Positions 16,801-63,364 of a stretch of DNA of 64,000 nucleotides are shown here, one piece after another. The DNA lies in NCBI RefSeq assembly GCF_032854445.1, contig NC_088300.1, positions 53,168,984-53,232,983 of the forward strand. The letters run 5' to 3'. Position numbers and translations under genes: made by a program. The DNA is from Liolophura sinensis. Its lineage: Eukaryota > Mollusca > Polyplacophora > Chitonida > Chitonidae. The notes beneath the pieces were generated by a model. It was not told where the DNA came from. It ran no database searches and saw nothing but the letters and a program-made list of their open reading frames with translations. Numbering within the stretch: position 1 is the stretch's first letter; each line of letters begins with the position of its first letter.

Positions 16801-19800
16801 CTTCAGTGTGCTGACAGAACTGGAGTTATATGTAGGAGATAGAGTAAGTTGTTTGGTGGGCTGCATGGTTACAACCGTCTCTAACATTTGAAATTCACTG
16901 AACATCTCCCGTCGTCCACACTCCAGTTGGCGGCGCAAGATGAGCTAAGCCCATCAAAAAAGTGAACCTTTCTAAATGTAGCGACGAGCGAGTGGATGGG
17001 TCAAAGGGAAACGCCGGATAACTGTAAACATTCCATTCTCCTCTCAAAGCCAGATGCTTGTCAAAAGACATAACGAAGTCTTAACCATATGTAGTTGACA
17101 TTTAAAAATGCAGAACACTTTTTTGGAGTCGAGAATATGTTCCTTTAACGTTTACAAAGCTGAACGAGCTAACTCATCCATCTTTGTTCTTTTGACTCCA
17201 ACTATAAGCGATGTTTACATTCAAATTGTGCGTGTGTTCCAGTTGTTTCTGGGTCGGCAAAAGGTGTGAAATTCCTCGTGGCATTTCTAAGTAATGGACC
17301 AGGAAGCAGTGACCTTCAGCTGATCATATTCAACCCAAACGAGAAGGAAAAGGCTATGGTCACTGTATCCAGCGCGGTCAACTCCACGGTACTGAACGAG
17401 AAGCAAGTGCAACGTGTTGATCAGCTGACGGTTCCTTACACCTACAGGATGGACACAAATGGTCCAAATGATAAAGGTGAGTTCGTGTCAAGTCCAAGGT
17501 ACAGATAAAATGATGACTATTCTTGCCATTGTATCTAAAAAAAGGGAATTATTTGTTCTTGATGGAAGTATAAAGAATGTGAATTCCCATTCTTTGCCAC
17601 ATATTGGCCATGCACATATAAACATGTTTACCTTTTATATAACATTTCTTTGCAACAAATAGTATAATCTAGCCTATTTTCATGAAGAGAGGTGGAAATA
17701 GACCTAAACGGCCACAGACATTCTTTCAACTGTACAAATTTTTAAAAAAATTAAAATATGTTTTATTCAGTAACTGTGAACAGGAACCGGGAACAGGATT
17801 TCGCGTAACCTACACCCCACGTACATATTGTTAAAAAAGGCAGAATAGGATAAAACAGCTGTATCGTCGGGTTACAGAAAAAACTCACACCTGATTGGTT
17901 AAAATTGATAACATGGCGACACTTCGATTTTCTCCTTGTGCATACATTGAACTGCAATATATCGGTTGTACAACATCACAAGACTAAAAAGGTATACTGT
18001 TTAAACACAGTGTGGGATTCTTTTATCAGTTCATATATACATTTGGTCTGGTGTTGTCTTTTTTAAGAGATTCATCTGCTGTCACAGATTGTAGACTATC
18101 TGTATCATTAAAGACGCACAACATAGTTACAGTTAAAAACAATTGCAGCGACGACAGAGTGATAGATGGCAAATGGTGACACCCAACCGTTGAAATACTG
18201 GCTCTTGTCAGGGTTGTATTCAGTTCATGTAAATGCACCATAGCTTAATCAAAATTGGGTGAAAAAACAGTGCAGTGGAGTTAATTGCAATTTATTAGAC
18301 ACCATCGGTATAGAATTACACAAAATGGTGTGTTGTCATCATATTTAACACACAGTCACATCAAAATATCTATTTTTATTCTATTCTGTAACTATGCCTT
18401 CATTCTATCACAGCTATTCTCGTGAGATCAACCATCCCCGTTTTAGTGAGTGCCAAAAACAGCAAGGCTGAGTCTACGGACAAATTCTTGGTCATTCCGG
18501 TCAAGAATCTGGGTAAAAGACACGTTGTGCTAACTCATCATGACGAGAAATACATGTCTGAGTTTGCCTTGGTGGCTACAAAGAATGACACGTTGGTGAA
18601 CATCACGTACCCGACAGGAGAACCCATGAGCCTGATTCTGCAGCAGTATGAGAGCTATCGAGAACAGTCTGAGGGTAGAAGTCTGATGGGCACCAAGATC
18701 ATCTCCAGTCACCCCGTGGCCATGTTTGCCGGAGGAATGACTACCAATTTCAGAAACAAGTTGGTTGGGCACATTGCCGAACAGTTACTCAGTGTGGAAT
18801 ACTGGGGAAGAACCTTTTTAATATCCCCCATGTCGGAGCAGAGGGACTTTCTGAGAATTGTCGGTCAGTATTCTTTTCGTATCAGCCAAAGTGATGTTTG
18901 TTTGTATAGATATTATACGAAAGCACGTGCAAATTTACAATAGCTGCGAAATCTCCGTATGTTGTTTCGTGTCGTCTTGCAGTCAGCTCTCCCGTTAAGT
19001 GAATGGCTTATGATAAAAGACAGGCTGGCCGTGGTGAAAGATAGGATAATGATGTTAAAAATTACACCAACCAACCGACCAAACGACAGAAAGAGCGACC
19101 TTTAGAACTGATTACTAGATGCACTTTACCGTTGTTTAACGCTGTTTTCAATAATTTTTCACTTACATGATGGAGGTATTATGGGTGGAAAAAAAAACAG
19201 TTGTTCTTTTGGCAACTTAAATACGAACATTCCCACATGTGATGTAAAGACACAGCATATTTGTGGAAGGTAACTGGTTGTCAAGAAGTTTAGTCTGTGC
19301 ATGCAAACTGCCACACAAGTGTCTCGTTGTCATCTATGTCACATGAGCAGAAATGAGAGCGGGAAAATGTACAAATTCCCTGTCTAAGGCCGGGATTTAA
19401 CCCATAACTCACGTGTCCTAGCAACAAAAAGATAAGTGTATTGGTGGATCAGCTCTGAACGTTCACGTGGTACTAGCCATTATTTCGGATGGCAGCCAAT
19501 GATCCGATTTCGTAGTTTGTAAACTAAACGGACTTCCCCATGCACAAGACCCAATTATCATATTATCATATGAAGTTCTTTCCATGGCCATTGCCATGTC
19601 ACTGGTTTTTAATAAGTCTGGTTTTTGTATTATAACTTACCAAGCATCTGAAAACATGTCAAATAGAGCAGTCTCGAACAAGTGAGTTCAGGGACCAAGA
19701 CAAGAGAACCCGACTCAACGAGGGTGTAAGTTTTCAGCTACTTTTTGTGTATGATCGTGAACGATATATGAAAGGTTGTCACTTGAAAGTTGAGTTTATT

Positions 19801-21629
19801 TAAGGAACCAAATAGTCCCTTCACTAAGAAAAAGAGAACGATTTCTTAGGTGGCCGTTAGTTTGTGGCTGCACATGTTATGAAAATGTCACGGATTTGTT
19901 TCCTCCCATTTCAGGTTACAATGAAACCACAGCCTTGAGAATCTGGCGAAACAGCACAGACAAGTACGAGTTCCACACAGTCTCTCCATTCCAGTCTTTG
20001 ATGATTGACATGGGCGCCAAGGGCGATGACCACTTGCTTGTGGAAGCCAATGACACTGTTCTGGTGGGACAGTTTTCTCTAACGAACTCAGAAAATCCCA
20101 AAAACAAGATTTTGGGGTTTACACTTGTTCAACCAAACGAACAGTTTCTACCTAGCTACGTGGTTGTAAGTTCAGGTACCGGTATTTTAACAGGCCATGA
20201 ATATGTACGCATTGTCGCACAAAACAATCAGGGATGGTTGAGCCATCTCCCGATTTACAATTCATTTGAGTCTGCTTTTACAAGCTATCAGACAGCCATT
20301 AAACACCTTGAATCTGGCCAGCAGGAATTTGGCGGTTATCAGGCATTCGGGATGAACTTGTACGAAATATCCTTTACCGATGCCTCGTCCCAGCTTGTGA
20401 ACCTACGTCTTGAGGTTCTACCCGAAAACTGTGTTAATACATCACTTGTACAATCCGACAACTTCGACAACGATTGTGATGGTAAAGTAGACGAAGAAAT
20501 CGTCGATAGCGTGGACAACGACGGCGACCGAGGAATAGATGAAGACACAAATGAAATGCTGCTAAACGTAACCCAGGCGAATATCTCAATAACTGAGTCA
20601 CTGAATGTTACGACATATCAAACTCTCCTTAATTCGTCTACCGCTTTTTTAAGCACTGGTACTGCAAAAACTACAACGAAGATAACCCATGAAGCGTCAA
20701 CAAGTGCCTCTGCTCATACTGGTGAGGATGCGCAGGGTAATGAATCAGGATCTCTGACAACCACTGCTTCCGGCAATCAGGTACAGGAGGAACCAATAAC
20801 CGAAAATCCGACACAGGAATACACAAATGATAATAGTTTGCAAGAACAGAACCCAACAGCTACTGACAGAGCTGCCAAGAATGGCACATCAGTTACTGGC
20901 AATGTGGTACAACACACGACAGATTCAGATAATGATGTTCCACTTGATGGGTCAGTTACAGGCAATCCGCCACAATACGAAATGACAACTGCGAATCATG
21001 CTGCTCCACGTGATGGGTCACTTACTGGCAATCAGGCACAATACGACACGACAACTGCGGATCGTGCTGCTCCACTTGATGGGTCAGTTACTGACAATCC
21101 GCAGCAATACGAAATGACAACTGCAGGTCATGTGGTTCAACGTGAAACGCCAGCTGCTGGCACGAGGCCACCACGAGACACGACGCCCCCTGACGATATG
21201 GGAAAAGAGGGGACAAGTGTGGAGAATGCAGTGAAACAAAGAACAACAAATGCTGCGGATGTAAAGCACGAAGAAACCATTGGTCCTGGAATTAAGAGGG
21301 ATTTGACAACGGCCCGGGAAGCCGTGGATAATCTAAGAGAAACTGTGGTAACAACATCTCCGCCAGATACAACGCCCCCAACAAGTGGAACTAATGTGGG
21401 CAAAAGTGCTGTTCAATCTGCTGCAAATGTTGAGCCGACGGTTCAGCAGGAATCCACTGATGATATTGGCATACTAACAATTGTCGCCCCATCCTTCATT
21501 TGTGGTGTGCCATTTCTCATCATTGTTATTTGCTGTTTCCGCTCCATCATGGCCGGTGTTTGCCGGAAAAAGGTTTATCCAAAGGAGAAGAAGTTTTACC
21601 AGAACGTCCAGCCTGTCCGCATAAGTTAA
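7564..21629 (+). CDS. IgGFc-binding-protein-like membrane mucin (four exons, 815 aa)
   Basis: Exons 7564-7612, 17243-17476, 18414-18863 and 19915-21629 all join in phase 1 at GT/AG sites. Residues 1-17 form a signal peptide (MIGAGRILLILLSTIT). About 24-420 resemble the IgGFc-binding N-terminal region of FCGBP-type proteins, with the typical block LLSVEYWGRTFLISPM. Residues 426-455 form an Asp/Asn-rich metal-binding motif (DNDCDGKVDEE). A Ser/Thr/Pro-rich stalk (about 460-760) includes three 22-residue repeats. Residues 762-786 are one hydrophobic helix, followed by a short basic cytoplasmic tail ending VRIS. It is probably a cell-surface, heavily O-glycosylated binding protein; many invertebrates carry such proteins and a role in mucus or immunity is only a guess. 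Least certain is exon 1, joined across a 9.6-kb intron on phase match and signal-peptide character. An in-frame ATG at 19896 lies inside the intron and is not the start. Confidence 0.87.
7714..7801. repeat. (AT)n microsatellite
   Basis: About 44 TA dinucleotides, roughly 100 bp inside intron 1 of the IgGFcBP-like gene. It is the source of spurious Ile-Tyr open frames on both strands. Confidence 0.98.
10497..10596. repeat. 24-bp tandem repeat, four copies
   Basis: Four copies of a unit like AACATGGCAATGCCAAGTCT plus GGTC. The unit length is a multiple of three, so a 104-residue frame runs through it, but no splice or domain support for coding was found. Confidence 0.9.
10920..11005 (-). mobile_element. 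SINE family A fragment (antisense)
   Basis: Contains ACTCAAGAATATTTCATTTA, then ACGACAACCGCCAGCATTA and a GAGAGGAAACTCGACAGAGC-like block, matching the 3' half of SINE A in reverse complement. The tail and head are missing. Confidence 0.75.
11776..11941. repeat. 83-bp direct duplication
   Basis: Two nearly identical 83-bp copies (11776-11858 and 11859-11941), each from AGTAAACCTTTACTTGAGAC to TATACACACCG. The few differences suggest a recent tandem duplication. A third copy starts at 11942 but diverges after a few bases. Confidence 0.92.
14055..14206 (+). mobile_element. SINE family B 3' half
   Basis: Closely matches the reverse complement of the element at 59.5-59.7 kb: TCAGTGAAGCAGCACTAG, GAAATCCGTCCTGCAACAAG, GGCACATTACATGCACT, then CGTCATATGACTAAAAAG and GACGTTAAACCCCAAGCACT with a (CACT)n end. 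The tRNA-like head is missing, so this is probably a 5'-truncated insertion. Confidence 0.82.
15343..16807. repeat. Foldback array of palindromic units
   Basis: Several dozen copies of a short unit centred on the perfect 20-base palindrome TTAGTTATTCGAATAACTAA, separated by CCAGCAGCGGG-type spacers. Spacers read CAGCAGCGGG from 15.35 to about 16.02 kb and CCCGCTGCTG from about 16.08 to 16.80 kb, so the array reverses orientation near 16.08 kb and forms two arms of about 0.7 kb. The outer ends are inverted repeats extending past the unit: left ACTGAAATTAGCAGCGG, and right end reverse-complemented ACTGAAGTTAGCAGCGG. It sits in intron 1 of the IgGFcBP-like gene, about 0.4 kb before exon 2. It could be a foldback transposon or an inverted-duplicated satellite. 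No target-site duplication was recognised. Confidence 0.92.
17477..18413 (+). other. Intron 2 of the IgGFcBP-like gene
   Basis: Donor AAAG|GTGAGT and acceptor TTCTATCACAG|CT. It contains an antisense copy of a dispersed repeat near 17.83-17.93 kb and nothing else recognisable. Confidence 0.85.
17830..17925 (-). repeat. Dispersed repeat C, antisense copy
   Basis: Its reverse complement contains GCCATGTTATCAATTTTAAC, CAATCAGGTG and ACAGCTGTTT in the same order as the copy at 63.57 kb. It is a short fragment of unknown class. Confidence 0.65.
18864..19914 (+). other. Intron 3 of the IgGFcBP-like gene
   Basis: Donor TCG|GTCAGT and acceptor TCCTCCCATTTCAG|GT, a strong polypyrimidine tract. No repeat or exon was recognised inside. 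Confidence 0.85.
20457..20546 (+). other. Asp-rich metal-binding motif in the IgGFcBP-like protein
   Basis: Residues 426-455 contain DNFDNDCDGKVDEE followed by DNDGDRGIDED. The DND(C)DGxxDEE pattern is that of the short putative metal-binding motif of the MopE type, and its acidic spacing also suits calcium. It sits between the globular region and the stalk. Metal identity is not known. Confidence 0.75.
20946..21143 (+). repeat. 66-bp coding repeat in mucin-like stalk
   Basis: Three in-frame 66-bp units encode 22-residue repeats (residues 589-654) sharing DGS(V/L)T(G/D)N, QY(E/D)(M/T)TTA and a final basic or hydrophobic stretch. Units begin at 20946, 21012 and 21078. Diverged half-units appear on both sides. 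Repeat number could vary between individuals. Confidence 0.9.
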
Positions 21630-22829: not shown

Positions 22830-25588
22830 ACGGTTTCTATTATATCATCACTCATTGCTGCTGATAGATAGATTCCATTCTCTAAATCGCTAGTTTTATC
22901 GCCCTGAACACTGTTACTTTTATCACACTGAATACTGCTGACAGATAGATTGCATTCTCCATATGCTACTTTATCGCCCTGAACACCACTGTTGACGGAT
23001 AGATTCCATTCTCTACATTGTTACTTTTACAGCCCTGAATGCTGTTGACATCAGATAGTTTCTATTCCCTATATTGTTAATTTTATTGCCCTGAACACTG
23101 TAAACAGATAGATTCCATTCTTCACTTTGTTACTTTCATCGCCCTGACCACCGCTGACACTGGAGATTCCATTCTTTATATGGTTACATTTATCGTCCTG
23201 AATACTGCTGACAGATAGATTGCTTTCTCCATATGCTACTTTTATCGCCTGAACACTGCTCACAGATAGATTGCATTCCCCATATGCTACTTTCATCGCC
23301 TTGAACACTGCTGACATATATAGAGATTCCATCCTCTATATGGTTACTTTCCTCGCCTTGAACATAGCTGATATAGATTCTATTCTCTAAATGGTTACTT
23401 TCATCGCCTTGAACACTGCAAACGGATAGATTCCATTCTCTATATGGTTACTTGCATTGCCTTGAACATAGCTGATATAGATTCTATTCTCTAAATGGTT
23501 ACTTTCATCGCCTTGAACACTGCAAACGGATAGATTCCATTCTCTATATGGTTACTTTCATCGCCTTGAACACTGCTGACAGATATAGAGATTCCATCCT
23601 CTATATGGTTACTTTCATCGCCTTGAACATAGCTGACATAGATTCTATTCTCTAAATGGTTACTTTCATCGCTTTGAACACTGCTGACAGATATAGAGAT
23701 TCCATTCTCTGTATGGTTACTTTCATCGCCTTGAACATAGCTGACATAGATTCTATTCTCTGAATGGTTACTTTCATTGCCTTGAACACTGCTGACAGCT
23801 ATAGAGATTCCATCCTCTATATGGTTATTTTCATCGCCTTGAACATAGCTGACATAGATTCTATTCTCTAAATGGTTACTTTCATCACCTTGAACACTGC
23901 TGACGGATAGATTCCATTCTCTATATGGTTACTTTCATCGCCTTGAACATAGCTGACGGATAGATTCTATTCTCTAAATGGTTACTTTCATCGCCTTGAA
24001 CACTGCAAACGGATACATTCCATTCTCTGTATGGTTACTTTCATCGCCTTGAACATAGCTGACATAGATTCTATTCTCTAAAAGGTTACTTTCATTGCCT
24101 TGAACACTGCTGACGGATAGATTCTATTCTCTATATGGTTACTTTCATCGCCCTGAATACTGCTGACAGATAGATTGCTTTCTCCATATGCTACTTTTAT
24201 CGCCCGAACACTGCTCACAGATAGATAGCATTCTCCATGTGCTACTTTCATCGCCCTGAACACTGCTGACAGATATAGAGATTCCATCCTCTATATGGTT
24301 ACTTTCCTCGCCTTGAACATAGCTGACATAGATTCTATTCTCTAAATGGTTACTTTCATCGCCTTGAACATAGCTGACATAGATTGCATTCTCTAAATGG
24401 TCATTTTTATCGCCTTGAACACGGCTGACTGATAGATTCCATTCTCTCTATGGTTACTTTCATCGCCTTGAACATAGCTGACATAGATTCTATTCTCTAA
24501 ATGGTTACTTTCATTGCCTTGAACATAGCTGACATAGATTCTATTCTCTAAATGGTTATTTTCATCGCCTTGAACACTGCTGACGGATAGATTCCATTCT
24601 CTAAATGGTTACTTTCATCGCCTTGAACATAGCTGACATAGATTCTATTCTCTATATGATTACTTTCATCGCCTTGAACATAGCTGACATAGATTCTGTT
24701 CTCTAAATGGTTACTTTCATTGCCTTGAACACTGCTGACGGATAGATTCCATTCTCTGTATGGTTACTTTCATCGCCTTGAACATAGCTGACATAGATTC
24801 TGTTCTCTAAATGGTTACTTTCATCGCCTTGAACATAGCTGACATAGATTCTGTTCTCTAAATGGTTACTTTCATTGCCTTGAACACTGCTGACGGATAG
24901 ATTCCATTCTCTAAATAGTTACTTTCATCGTCTTGAACATAGCTGACATAGATTCTATTCTCTAAATGGTTACTTTCATCGCCTTGCACGCTGCTGACGG
25001 ATAGGTTCCATCCTCTAAATGGTTACTTTCATCGCCTTGAACATAGCTGACATAGATTCTATTCTCTAAATGGTTACTTTCATCGCCTTGCACACTGCTG
25101 ACGGATAGATTCCATTCTCTAAATGGTTACTTTCATCGCCTTGAACACTGCAAACGGATAGGTTCCATCCTCTAAATGGTTACTTTCATCGCCTTGCACA
25201 CTGCTGACGGATAGATTCCATTCTCTATATGGTTACTTTCATCGCCTTGAACATAGCTGACATAGATTCTGTTCTCTAAATGGTTACTTTCATCGCCTTG
25301 AACACTGCAAACGGATAGATTCCATCCTCTATATGGTTACTTTCATCGCCTTGAACATAGCTGACATAGATTCTATTCTCTAAATGGTTACTTTCATCGC
25401 CTTGAACACTGCAAACGGATAGATTCCATTCTCTATATGGTTACTTTCATCGCCTTGAACATAGCTGACATAGATTCTATTCTCTAAAAGGTTACTTTCA
25501 TCGCCTTGAACACTGCAAACGGATAGATTCCATTCTCTATATGGTTACTTTCATTGCCTTGAACATAGCTGACATAGATTCTCTATAT
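22830..25588. repeat. 2.75-kb minisatellite, ~51-58-bp units
   Basis: Around fifty copies of a unit containing CGCCTTGAACA, (TAG/CTG)CTGACATAGATT, (C/T)(C/T)ATTCTCTA and ATGGTTACTTTCAT. Two subtypes are interspersed, one with CATAGCTGACATAGATTC and one with CACTGCTGACGGATAGATTC, and often alternate so that a ~104-bp dimer period is visible. The left end (22.83-23.3 kb) is more diverged than the centre, typical of array-edge decay. Minus-strand open frames through it are by-products of the repeat. Unit similarity without unique spacers excludes a CRISPR array. Confidence 0.95.
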
Positions 25589-57429: not shown

Positions 57430-58460
57430 ACTCTGATAAATCTTGATCAGCTGGCCAAGAAATGTTTGAAATCCAGATGGGGTGCTTCTGTACAGTTTCT
57501 GCAGATGTCAATCCGATGAATCCTGACTTTTGTGGCTAACACAGGTTTGACATCTTGCTTAACATGACAGGTGAGTCCGAGCTTCGCTGCTGAGAAATGT
57601 TTGATATCCTGCTTAAAAATGGCAGGTGAGTCCGGTGCTCTGCAAGTGAGAAATTTTTGATATCCTGCTCAATATGGCTGGTGAGTCCTACCTCCACAGG
57701 TGAGAAATGTTTGATATCCTGCTTAATATGGCTGGTGAGGTCCCTTTCTGCTCTCAAGACAGTCATTGTCTGCAAAGAGATGCCTGACTCACTGAAAGAG
57801 ATTTTTAATTTCCAGTTTATGGCTTTTAAGGTCCCCTTCTGCTTCAGTACAGTATAAGTAAAGATCAGTCTACCGACTCCTGTCTCGCCACAGTCCTCAT
57901 CTGAGATACATGTACATGTATGTTACTGTAGATATCCAGGTCATAAATGCAACTTTTAGGTCCATTTCTGCTCTGAAACCGTGAGTGTCTGCAAAGGTTA
58001 GCTCACTACTTCCCAAGTTCTCAGCTGAGAAATGTTTGAAATCCAGGACATGACTTGTGAGTTCCCTTTCAGTTCTTTTACCATTGTCTTTCGACCCTCC
58101 AGCAGAGAGAGGTTTGATAGTCAGCTTATTATGACTGGAGAGGTCACTTAATATGCTGTCAGACAGTCAGTATCTACAAAGGTGAGACCACTGACTCCTG
58201 ACTGCCCAGCTCAGAAGTGTTTGATATCCAGCTCTTGACTGGTCTCTTCCACTTCCACACGGTGCAGGGGTTAGCTCAATGAATCCTGACTAGCTGATTG
58301 AAAAGAAGTTTGATATCCAGCTCTTGACTGGTCTCTTCCACTTCCACACGGTGCAGGGGTTAGCTTACTGAATCCTGACTAGCTGATTGAGAAATGTTGG
58401 ATATCCAGCTCATTGCTGGTGAGGTTTGTTCCTTGTTCTGTACAGTCCCTGTAGGCTTGG
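57430..58460. repeat. Degenerate repeat spanning the HELQ 3' flank and C-terminal codons
   Basis: About nine decayed units of up to ~100 bp share GAGAAATGTTTGATATCCAG, a (C/T)T(G/T)ACTGGTGAGGTCC-type block, CTGCAAAGGTTAGCTCACTG and ATCCTGACT. A compressed ~60-bp version repeats at 57.54-57.74 kb and an almost perfect 89-bp direct repeat occupies 58.22-58.40 kb. The last 20 or so HELQ codons and the stop codon (58360-58362) fall inside one such unit. Confidence 0.8.
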
Positions 58461-61400
58461 ACATCTGGCCTTCTGCTGTCACCTTATTGTCTGGTAAAGT
58501 CATGGGAATTGACATCAAATCTTCATACTCTCCCAACATAGCCTCTAACTTCTCATTCAGTAAAATCTGAACATGAAAAAATGAATTAGATTTGTTTTAT
58601 CAAAACAGTTTTCTCTTCAAGTCCTTCTTGTGACTATTTTGTTATGGTGATAGAGAAAACGCCAACCCCCTAGGAAACCATTTTATCTTGCAATAGATAG
58701 ATTTGGTTAAAGAATGTTTTTAATTTTTATTTATTTTTCTTATTTTTTGGTTTAAGTGGAAGTTATTAACACTCCTTTAGGTTACACACAGAGGACACTT
58801 ACATCTCACAAAAACATTTCACTTTAAATGTCTCACTAGTACATAGACAAGACAGCTGAACAAAGAACTAATATCTGTATTCCATATCGGCTTGCTAATA
58901 CATGATCCATGCCCCATACTTGATCACACCTGTATGTAACTCGATATACAACTCCAGATTACCTTAGCAGAGGCTACAACCTGCTTAGCTTGTCGCCTGG
59001 GGAAGTTCTCTATGATCTTCACTAGCTTGTCTGGGTCAGCCTGGGCTACCAAGGACAGAGACTTGTAACCTGCATTAAGTAGCTGTTTGGCTCGTCCCTG
59101 AAGTGTGGAAAATTCCAGATTTTAAACGCTTTATTATTATCACAATAACAAGCAAGAAATACATTGCCAAAAGACTTTGTTTAAACATATACCCATTTTC
59201 TGTTTGCTTATGTCTGGCCTACCAAGAATTTAGCACTTACTGTTTCATAACACTCTTTATTTATTCCACTGGTATTTTACAAATATACTTGAACACATTT
59301 CACTTCTATGATGGTCGTAAGATTTGTGGGCAGTGGAAATTGCACAAAGAGTAAATCATGGTACATCACCTGACAAACCTCCTGATGAAAAGTTACTATA
59401 AACAATCCAACATTAGCTGAATTAAAACACATGGCCTAGTCTGCAAGAGCTATTTGTCTGAATAGGAGTAGTGTACACCTAGGAAGGTAGTGTGAGTGAG
59501 TGAGCGAGTGAGTGAGTGAGTGAGTGCTTGTGTTTAACGTCATACTTAACAATTTTTACAATTCATATGACGATGAAGGAATCCTTACAGTGCATGTAAT
59601 GTGCCTGCTTGTTGCAGGACGGATTTCCACTGCTCTTTTGTCTAGTGCTGCTTCACTGAGGCCACCCGCCCAAGCCATTATACTGATACAGTCAACCAGT
59701 TGTTGCACTATCCCCTTCATGCTGCACGCCAAGCAAGGAAGTTACAACTTCCTCTTTTAAAGTCTTAGGTGTGACTCTACACAGGACTGACCCTGGACCT
59801 ATCACTCTCAAAGCGGACACTCTACCAACTGTGCTATTGGGGCCGGTTGGAGGTAGTTTGAGTTTCTTTATATTATTTGAACATACCAATGTACGAATAC
59901 AAAGTAGAAGACCATGTGCTTACCTGCTTAACACCTGGGATTTCCATTAATGGCAGAAGTTCCAGAGAGACACAATAGGATAGTGTTTTTATAAAGTTTG
60001 ATAACAGATCTGGAAATGCCCAAAATTCCTTTATTTCCTGTGGAAAAGAGGAAACTTTATTCAAATAAACAAGACAATGCACACACGTATTACTCTAAAC
60101 TCCATACGCATAAAACATCATGCTCTTCAAAAAATCAATTTCTTTCATGTATATATTTTTAACCGTACAAATTTAATTGGCAAAATACAGCATAAATATA
60201 TGGTGACACTGCATGACCCCAAAAAGGGGCGAAGTTTATGAGAGTTGCTTGCTTTACAGAGTGTACCTGGCGTCTAGAGGCCTGTTTCCCAAAGAGCACT
60301 TGTATAAAGTAAGCCCTTAATTACCATGACAATGTATGTTGCAGTGATACATGTATACAGTGCACTTAGCTCATGGCTATGCTTCATGAAACCGGCCAAT
60401 GGCTGAGAAGAATAACAAGGGAGTATTCTTATTTTTTTCACTTAGTCTACAAACTGTTGGCTAATCATAATAAACAGATGACATGAACTTACTGATTACA
60501 TGGCCATCCAGAATCCCTGGCATGGCTACAGATATGAGGACTCACCTGGCAGAAATGAAAGACACAGGATGCAAAGCTGGCTGCCCCAGTCAGGAGATTC
60601 TGTAAAAAGCCACGCGGCTGCTGGAAGATGGCTGCCACTTCCCATATTGTCTTCTTCTTCCACAGGTTATACAACATCAGTGTCAGGTAGAACCTCTTCA
60701 CTGTCAGACTGTCCACACTCTGCACACATAGACAGGTAATATACAACATGTACAACATCATTGTCAGGTAGAACCTCTTCACTGTTAGACTGTCCACACT
60801 CTGCACACATAGACATGTAATATGCAACGTGTGCAACATCAGTGTCAGGTAGAACCTCTTCACTGTCAGACTGTCCACACTCTGCACACACAGACATGTA
60901 ATATGCAACAAGTACAACATCAGTGTCAGGTAGAACCTCTTCACTGTTAGACTGTCCACACTCTGCACACATAGACAGGTAATATACAACATGTACAACA
61001 TCAGTGTCAGGTAGAACCTCTTCACTGTTAGACTGTCCACACTCTGCACACATAGACATGTAATATGCAACGTGTGCAACATCAGTGTCAGGTAGAACCT
61101 CTTCATTGTCAGACTGTCCACACTCTGCACACACAGACATGTAATATGCAACAAGTACAACATCAGTGTCAGGTAGAACCTCTTCACTGTTAGACTGTCC
61201 ACACTCTGCATACATAGACAGGTAATATACAACATGTACAACATCAGTGTCAGGTAGACCCTCTTCACTGTTAGACTGTCCACACTCTGCATACATAGAC
61301 AGGTAATATACAACATGTACAACATCAGTGTCAGGTAGACCCTCTTCACTGTTAGACTGTCCACACTCTGCATACATAGACAGGTAATATACAACATGTA

Positions 61401-63364
61401 CAACATCAGTGTCAGGTAGACCCTCTTCACTGTTAGACTGTCCACACTCTGCACACATAGACAGGTAATATACAACATGTACAACATCAGTGTCAGGTAG
61501 ACCCTCTTCACTGTTAGACTGTCCACACTCTGCACACATAGACAGGTAATATACAACATGTACAACATCAGTGTCAGGTAGACCCTCTTCACTGTTAGAC
61601 TGCCCACACTCTGCACACATAGACAGGTAATATACAACAAGTACAACAATAGTGTCAGGTAGACCCTCTTCACTGTTAGGCTGTCCACAATATGCAAACA
61701 TAGGCAGGTAATATTCAACATGTACAACAATAGTGTCAGGTAGACCCTCTTCACTGTTAGACTGTCCACACTCTGCATGCATAGACAGGTAATATACAAC
61801 ATGTACAACATTAGTGTCAGGTAGACAATCTTCACTGTTAGACTGTCCACACTCTGCACACATAGACATGTAATATACAACATGTACAACATCAGTGTCA
61901 GGTAGACCCTCCTCACTGTTAGACCGTCCACACTCTGCACACATAGGCATGTAATATACAACATCAGTGTCAGGTAGAACCTCTTCACTGTTAGACTGTC
62001 CACACTCTGCACCCATACACAAGCAATTAAACAGCATGTACAACATCAGTGTCAGGTAGACCCTCATCACTGTTAGACTGTCCACAATATGCAGACACAG
62101 ACAGGCAATTTAATTTTAAACCCTCAAAACTGCTCACAGTCTGCAAACCAAGGCAAATTTAACATAAACAGAGTTAGGTACAATGTACATGTAGAACCTA
62201 TAAATTGTTCGGATAGGTTACTAGGCTCAGGGTGACGCTGCAGAGCAGTTTTGGCATGTACATGTATGACAGCTCATACACATCAGACCTGCAAATTTAT
62301 TCATTCATTTGATCACTTTCTAATGCTATTCCGCACAACTTTACATAAAAGTATGAGGACCCCCACATGTACATGTCTATACAGAGAATACTCACCTGTC
62401 GCCTAGACTGACCAGAGGCCATCTTAGCAATGTATCCCTCAGGCACACCTATCAGATCTGCCACACGCAGCTCTGTGGGATCCAGATTGTTCATCTATCG
62501 AGAAATAAAGGTCTAATTTAATTAATGTACCAAGTAAATGCTGAAAAGATATCACAACATATTCCAAAGTCACAATGGATATTCAGGGGATGAAAATAAC
62601 AACAGAATGATCAAATATGAAGCATAAAATAGGTCATTTTGCATTTTAGTGTATTAAACAAAACACAAAAGACTTGAGACCTGTTGGAGACCTTTAAAAC
62701 ACGAACCTGTGTGAAGTACGTCATCCAACATGGTTTGATCTCAACACCAGTCTCATAAGGAGTCACAAGGAATAAAAGGTGCAGATAATTGGACAGAACC
62801 AGTGAGTCCTTGGCTTTCTGAAGGTCATTGTACAATCTCTGACTGTATTCAAGGTCAACAGATCCTGAAGAAGACAAGTTCATGTTATTTATTTATCTGA
62901 ACAAACTTTCACAGAATATTGATATTCCATTTGTACAATGCTGTTTAGAAACTGACAACACCTACTGCATCAAATGGAAACTTTCCAAGAATATAACAGA
63001 CAAAACCATATTCCAGCTCACAGCTTCAGTTGTATAAAGCTATGCAGGGCCATCTGAAAACAGCTTTAGCACCTCTTCTGGCTAATGCTGGGGGGAACAT
63101 GGTTGTGTAAATGACAGAATCTGTTATTGTATTGTTAAACCAACCTTTGAATGTAGCTTTTCCCAGAGGAGTGACCTCCAAAAACCGGACATCTTCTTGG
63201 CCATTTCTGCAGTCATCTTTCTTCTGTTGCACCAGGCCTAACTCTATAAGATTCTCCAAGGCATCCATCATGGCCTGTGCCACATCACACTTCAGAACTT
63301 CATTCTGCTTGTTCAGCAATGTCTTCTGCATAAACTCAGCCAGAGATAGAGTATTTGGCGTAAC
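58360..63364 (-). CDS. HELQ: HELQ helicase, C-terminal part (seven exons; 5' part outside window)
   Basis: In transcription order the exons are 63364-63145, 62864-62707, 62494-62396, 60719-60546, 60037-59924, 59097-58963 and 58566-58360 (stop TAA), joining in phase to 368 residues. Recognisable HELQ blocks in order: [99 protein letters not shown] (helix-hairpin-helix) and [14 protein letters not shown]. These correspond to the winged-helix, ratchet and HhH regions after the two RecA-like domains; the ATPase motifs lie beyond the right edge. HELQ is a 3'-5' DNA helicase related to the POLQ helicase domain and works in interstrand-crosslink and break repair. Oddities: the fourth exon listed is preceded by an 81-bp repeat array made from its own acceptor and 5' end, and the last exon ends in low-similarity tail sequence from another repeat. 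Confidence 0.96.
59491..59852 (-). mobile_element. SINE family B, full length, HELQ intron (sense)
   Basis: The best preserved SINE B. On the minus strand the head has a clear tRNA-like box A (CCAATAGCACAGTTGGTAGA, 59820-59840) and box B-like GGTCCAGGGTCAGTCC (59784-59799). The body follows with TCAGTGAAGCAGCACTAG and GTCCTGCAACAAGCAGGC, then ATGACGTTAAACACAAGCAC and a (CACT)n tail. Same strand as HELQ, between its fifth and sixth visible exons. Confidence 0.92.
60671..62110 (-). repeat. 81-bp tandem array built from a HELQ intron-exon junction
   Basis: About 18 units. On the HELQ strand each unit has about 33 bp of intron end (ATTACCTGTCTATGTGTGCAG) followed by the first 48 or so bases of the exon (AGTGTGGACAGTCTAACAGT, GAAGAGG, TACCTGACACTGATG). 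The unit next to the real exon continues into unique exon sequence at 60670. Sixteen upstream units are stop-free in the HELQ frame (27 residues each, core VDSLTVKR then YLTLMLY) and a second frame is also open, because the 81-bp unit lacks stops in both. Units near the exon encode RFY, distal ones RVY. The outermost unit (about 62.02-62.10 kb) is frameshifted, and a decayed one may follow to 62.14 kb. Confidence 0.95.

Follow-up and report, generated by a model that had tools for sequence, protein, structure and literature searches.

Tandem duplications of exon-intron boundaries, termed mirages, have been described in the Adh3 and globin genes of lancelets, where they are unstable in length (PMC3087553), and in the lancelet PGBD5 and troponin C genes (PMC3902484). 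Mirages occur on either side of an exon and undergo concerted evolution inside the array; the Adh3 data, together with reverse transcription-PCR of globin transcripts, suggest that splicing is regular despite them, and they have been proposed as a source of new introns (PMC3087553). Here we describe an array of this kind in the HELQ gene of the chiton Liolophura sinensis. It lies in a stretch of 64,000 bases that was analysed as a whole (the window) and consists of head-to-tail copies of the 3' splice junction of one HELQ exon. Judged from its sequence and from the comparisons made below, the array is very probably a mirage-type minisatellite that sits neutrally in an intron, with the exon-proximal acceptor normally joined and the protein unchanged.

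Like the lancelet mirages (Adh3, troponin C, the globins BflGb6 and BflGb9, and PGBD5), the HELQ array is formed by minisatellite-like copies of an exon-intron boundary within a working gene, and concerted evolution is common to both. BflGb6 has the same layout, in that the 3' end of an intron and the 5' part of an exon are repeated, with 6 and 3 units in two haplotypes as compared with 17 in HELQ (PMC3087553). The HELQ array differs in its mollusc host, the reported hosts of mirages being cephalochordates, and in that it happens to be in frame. Human UBC, in which stochastic splicing makes the number of included repeat monomers variable (PMC10809524), also has tandem repeats with splice sites in every unit; its units, however, are coding, and AGGT serves as both donor and acceptor, whereas the HELQ units are intronic and repeat an acceptor. 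NAGNAG tandem acceptors (PMC2875228) resemble the array in offering several in-frame acceptors at one exon, but their spacing is 3 nt rather than 81 nt, and each HELQ acceptor has a possible branch point of its own. In human ABCA7, an intronic variable number tandem repeat is reported to affect splicing, and the HELQ array is likewise a tandem repeat of an intron that could do so. To our knowledge, such intronic repeats have not been described as copies of splice junctions. The first-pass annotation of this DNA knew of no such case described in HELQ. None was found by us either, which is a weak test of the literature, but arrays of this kind are known as lancelet mirages (PMC3087553, PMC3902484). 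Limited literature searches, with most subscription journals outside their reach, returned no junction array from a chiton or any other mollusc; as far as such searches reach, the presence of junction arrays in a chiton, and their frequency in a small sample, are new.

The gene is encoded on the minus strand. Its exons specify a helical domain of the POLQ/HELQ type (Pfam POLQ_helical, E 1.2e-32) and a helix-hairpin-helix (HHH_5, E 5.4e-6), and the coding frame stops at about 58360, shortly after the latter, which is compatible with HELQ. A PDB search with the protein returned seven sequences, six of POLQ (best E 5.4e-22) and one of a ski2-type helicase, none of them named HELQ; the name HELQ, as first annotated, agrees with the two Pfam matches and is based in part on likeness to known HELQ sequence. 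The exon that follows the array begins after cag with AGTGTGGAC, its first codon being AGT (Ser), and ends with HFCQ followed by gtgagt. As had been noted, the junction is in phase 0, both at the donor at 62395 and at the exon start at 60719. When the exons at 62494-62396 and 60719-60546 are joined, the PDB alignment has a gap of just 4 residues at the junction. A protein search of the genome with HELQ gave four exon matches in this gene and one weak match on contig C1 (37%, E 3e-5), which is probably the POLQ relative; no HELQ retrocopy, which would reveal a used junction, was seen in that search.

Table 1. Features of the HELQ locus (positions within the window) and junction arrays at other helicase loci of the same genome.
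Feature	Position	Strand	Remarks
Window	C6:53168984-53232983		genome of 609,464,459 bases in 632 contigs
Upstream HELQ exon	62396..62494	-	ends SGQSRRQ, then gtgagt; phase 0; donor 62395
Intron flank of outermost unit, 23 bp	62089..62111	-	weak likeness to the intron part of the unit
81-bp junction minisatellite	60670..62109	-	extent by Tandem Repeats Finder (TRF); includes first ~50 bp of the exon
Upstream units (17)	60720..62088	-	15 of 81 bp, 1 of 72 bp, 1 of 82 bp
16 units stop-free in exon frame	60720..62006	-	429 codons
Units U01-U03	60720..60962	-	near-copy of U04-U06 (60963-61205), 243-bp block, by eye
Exon-proximal acceptor	60720..60723	-	GCAG before the exon; expected working site, use predicted
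HELQ exon with repeated first ~50 bp	60546..60719	-	helical (ratchet) domain, Pfam POLQ_helical
Junction array, L055			eIF4A-like (PDB E 1.8e-11); 45 bp x 3; donor side
Junction array, L065			DEAD-box (general DEAD-box PDB matches; Pfam Helicase_C E 2.7e-16), presumably DDX52-like; 22 bp x 26.6; donor side
Junction array, L066			DDX41-like (E 1.7e-21); 39 bp x 22, GGTGAGT in the unit; donor side
Junction array, L072			SMARCAD1-like (E 2.6e-28), name in part our assumption; 69 bp x 11.5; donor side
Junction array, L080			DDX46-like (E 8.8e-24); 85 bp x 9.6; donor side (position of the donor uncertain by 3 bases)
Junction array, L081			no PDB match; Helicase_C below cut-off, E 0.0016; presumably DDX47-like; 81 bp x 5.3; acceptor side

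The claim that an acceptor and the start of its exon had been amplified together was confirmed. TRF reports a period of 81 with 17.9 copies and 92% matches, and segmentation yields 17 units followed by the exon itself. On the minus strand the units start at 62088, 62006, 61934, 61853, 61772, 61691, 61610, 61529, 61448, 61367, 61286, 61205, 61124, 61043, 60962, 60881 and 60800, the exon then following at 60719; the two units of odd length are those at 62006 (72 bp) and 62088 (82 bp). Each unit comprises about 31 bp of the 3' end of the intron and about 50 bp of the start of the exon, so that, as in a mirage, one tandem unit holds both exon and intron sequence of a single splice junction. The 72-bp unit is without nine bases that, by eye, seem to have been duplicated internally within the other units (ATGTTGTAC/T), and these may either have been lost or never have been present. 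Immediately outside the array, the likeness of the 23-bp intron flank to the intron part of the unit scored 26, with the 95% and 99% levels of shuffled sequences at 24 and 27.

The units resemble the exon closely and in an ordered manner. Their consensus differs from it at 2 of 50 aligned positions, and over 48 bp the unit at 60881 does not differ from it at all. Over the same 48 bp, eleven inner units show 0-3 differences from the exon and five of the six outer units 4-6, the remaining outer unit, at 62006, showing only 1. In an alignment examined by eye, U07-U09 are identical to each other, and U01-U03 differ from U04-U06 by one, one and zero changes; with this near-duplicate 243-bp block adjoining the exon, growth of the array appears to have been recent there. 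The alignment as a whole, also by eye, shows concerted evolution within the cluster and a divergent edge, as described for mirages. When the 609 Mb genome was searched with a 121-bp query spanning the junction, in a search that passes over very common words, 18 matches were returned, all of them at the HELQ array, and a single copy of the locus was found; with that reservation, a dispersed repeat family is unsupported. A second tandem repeat, at 58219..58420 on the minus strand, runs across the end of the last HELQ coding exon, whose stop lies at about 58360. Around it, at 57456-58420, a 20-bp motif with the core GGATATCAAACATTTCTCA occurs at nine places with at most 5 mismatches (mean in base shuffles, 0.005), the first of them inside the HELQ coding end; the end of the last coding exon is therefore also repeated.

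An acceptor had been ascribed to every unit. CAG is kept at 15 of the 17 unit starts, but CAT is found at 62088 and 61691. The context from -24 to -1 is nearly uniform across the units, with 50-65% pyrimidine at -23 to -4, so that local sequence cannot separate the real site from its copies. A CTRAY motif lies 39-46 nt upstream at 16 of the 18 sites formed by the units and the exon, the exceptions being 62088, where there is none, and 61934, where it is found at 30-57 nt; an AG-free stretch of 48-59 nt precedes 17 of the 18 sites, and one of 36 nt precedes that at 62088. The acceptor of the exon at 60719 scored 0.60, as compared with 0.65-0.75 at five of the six other HELQ acceptors and an equal value at the sixth, two of these six comparison coordinates being off by one. 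Cassette exons made of single units were also considered and set aside, as reading the unit by eye revealed no good donor.

The sixteen units nearest the exon had been said to lack stops in its frame, and this was borne out: frame 0 and frame 2 contain 0 stops each, and frame 1 of the minus strand contains 63. The predicted gain of 27 residues per step is correct for the 81-bp units, but the 72-bp unit would add 24. To ask what the open frame reflects, the column variants among the fifteen 81-bp units were classified, the 72- and 82-bp units being left out. In frame 0, the 25 variants comprise 7 synonymous, 18 nonsynonymous and 0 stop changes, against 6.3, 18.1 and 0.6 expected if the same changes are placed at random (5,000 draws; P 0.44 for synonymous changes and 0.53 for stops). 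Selection of a coding type has left no sign in the repeated frame, with the low power of 25 variants; with the variants fitting the random-mutation null and a second frame equally open, we reject such selection on the open frame. The translated unit is hydrophobic, as had been noted, with a 19-residue maximum of mean hydropathy of 1.64 compared with 1.15 in the native part of the two exons. Judged from this, translation of a unit would insert a stretch of high hydropathy into the helicase domain. Nothing in these results points to translation of the array.

To place the HELQ array in its genomic setting, exon loci of two families were sampled from the same genome: 30 Helicase_C loci (96 kb) of 76 matches listed, and 30 Pkinase loci (110 kb) of 138 listed. 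Sets of 20 AAA and 132 kinesin matches entered none of the counts. With thresholds of a period of at least 20 and a TRF score of at least 100, 14 arrays were found in the helicase loci and 5 in the kinase loci. Six of the 14 helicase-locus arrays have an exon-intron junction in the unit, five on the donor side and one on the acceptor side, the exon edges being placed by reading the sequence (Table 1). The arrays of L065, L066 and L072 overlap the matched exon, and those of L055, L080 and L081 lie at other exons of their loci. Three further arrays were not counted as junction arrays: L075 and L054, which are intronic and near an exon, and L058, whose array reaches into the end of a last coding exon. 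In L058, presumably a DDX23-like gene, a 41-bp repeat of about 19 copies (positions 1-766 of the locus) overlaps the stop codon of the last coding exon; the tail peptide gave no Pfam match.

None of the six could be read through as the HELQ array can. In all five donor-side arrays a stop is met 1 to 14 codons past the end of the exon in the exon frame, and the 22-bp unit of L065 in addition shifts the frame. In L081 an extra base in the last unit takes the copies out of the exon's frame, and they then run into stops. Frequent use of the copies would break these messages, suggesting that it is the exon-proximal junction that is normally used. HELQ has the sole stop-free array among the seven, and its openness would be about what chance gives, from the one-in-three probability of a triplet period together with the short intron parts of the unit. 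The proposal that protein length is affected by the open frame thus finds no support, either in the array itself, where frame 2 is equally open and the variants fit a neutral null, or in the six comparable arrays with their exon-frame stops.

That proposal amounts to a ruler, stochastic or regulated, in which splicing to upstream acceptors would give HELQ isoforms n x 27 further residues before the ratchet helix. The mechanism exists in principle, as the variable monomer number of human UBC, attributed to stochastic splicing, indicates (PMC10809524). The array would supply it with 15 CAG acceptors of nearly the same sequence, preceded by AG-free stretches of 48-59 nt and, in 14 cases, by a branch-like CTRAY motif at a distance of 39-46 nt, and with a frame 0 open through 16 units. 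What makes a ruler distinctly unlikely is that no signal of coding selection accompanies an open frame that has an open neighbour, that the insert would be hydrophobic, and that six comparable arrays elsewhere in the genome cannot be read through. Moreover, exon definition disfavours long exons, and those produced here would measure 174 + 81n nt. The 15 decoy acceptors, of roughly equal local sequence, might instead act on expression rather than on the protein, slowing splicing or raising intron retention in a manner dependent on unit number. The intronic repeat of ABCA7 is reported to affect splicing in human; splicing is, however, reportedly undisturbed by lancelet mirages (PMC3087553, PMC3902484), and we regard such an effect as unlikely. 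It is also conceivable that the unit number was inflated or collapsed in assembly, as the high-fidelity (HiFi) coverage is only 14x. However, the reads average 8,347 bp (PMC11068029), long enough to span an array of 1.4 kb, and the units differ among themselves in an ordered fashion, so that an artefact is extremely improbable.

We therefore favour a neutral mirage-type minisatellite, given the six junction arrays elsewhere in the genome, the fit of the changes among the units to a neutral null and the similar anatomy of the lancelet arrays. The array would have been seeded by a tandem duplication of the HELQ 3' splice junction, with about 31 bp of intron end and about 50 bp of exon start, and would have grown by unequal exchange or slippage, its units being homogenised with one another and at times with the exon itself. 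It would have remained intronic, the spliceosome joining the exon-proximal acceptor and leaving the protein unaltered, and it is likely to vary in length between individuals. Several observations weigh against this interpretation. In sequence, the acceptors of the array hardly differ from the real one, and local strength gives the latter no advantage. Use of an upstream acceptor would preserve the frame in HELQ, unlike in the six other junction arrays. None of the 30 kinase loci has an array on the matched exon; 26 of the 30 kinase matches sit in open frames of at least 200 residues and would have few splice junctions nearby. Two of the five kinase arrays (L051 and L038) were read closely and the other three in translated flanks. 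Finally, enrichment at exon edges is weakly supported, as it depends on the null chosen and the sample is small. Under free placement, 2.7 overlaps between array and match are expected in the 30 helicase loci and 3 were seen (P 0.55), and for both families together 4.0 are expected against 3 seen (P 0.82). If no overlap may exceed 60 bp, a limit of the sort that selection would set, the expected numbers are 0.54 for the helicase loci (P 0.014) and 0.74 for both families (P 0.036). Arrays may arise anywhere and survive at edges.

Other repeats were seen in the window and in the assembly. Window arrays with at least 3 copies, a period of at least 20 and a score of at least 100 span 6,619 of the 64,000 bases. 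Some 50 copies of a 51-bp repeat (TRF) occupy 22913-25581, and a 66-bp repeat at 20932-21184, which may be a coding repeat, lies within a 611-residue open frame on the plus strand (19794-21629). Contig C99 of the assembly (G000; 108,685 bases) has seven COX1 matches at a spacing of about 15.5 kb; it resembles a series of joined mitochondrial genome copies, a concatemer, and is likely an assembly product. The gene order of a mitochondrial contig of 15,209 bp is the chiton or ancestral mollusc order, which speaks against a lancelet as host, a possibility considered in view of the mirage literature.

Beyond HELQ, we lean slightly towards the view that junction minisatellites occur genome-wide in this chiton, their growth, to either side of the exon, repeatedly enlarging introns in conserved genes, in a manner like that of lancelets but arisen independently in molluscs, and leaving many decoy sites that are bypassed by position alone. 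Their frequency, at 6 of 30 helicase loci, is in our opinion a more interesting result than the HELQ array. Each array presents from a few to about two dozen splice sites, near-identical and distinguished almost solely by position, and junction arrays thereby offer a natural means of testing which of several equal sites the spliceosome selects, be it the first transcribed, the one nearest the exon or the one favoured by exon definition. Should junction arrays be common in chitons, as their presence at six of the 30 helicase loci sampled suggests, mirages would be no peculiarity of lancelets, and a route to intron growth and to new introns would be present in a second phylum.

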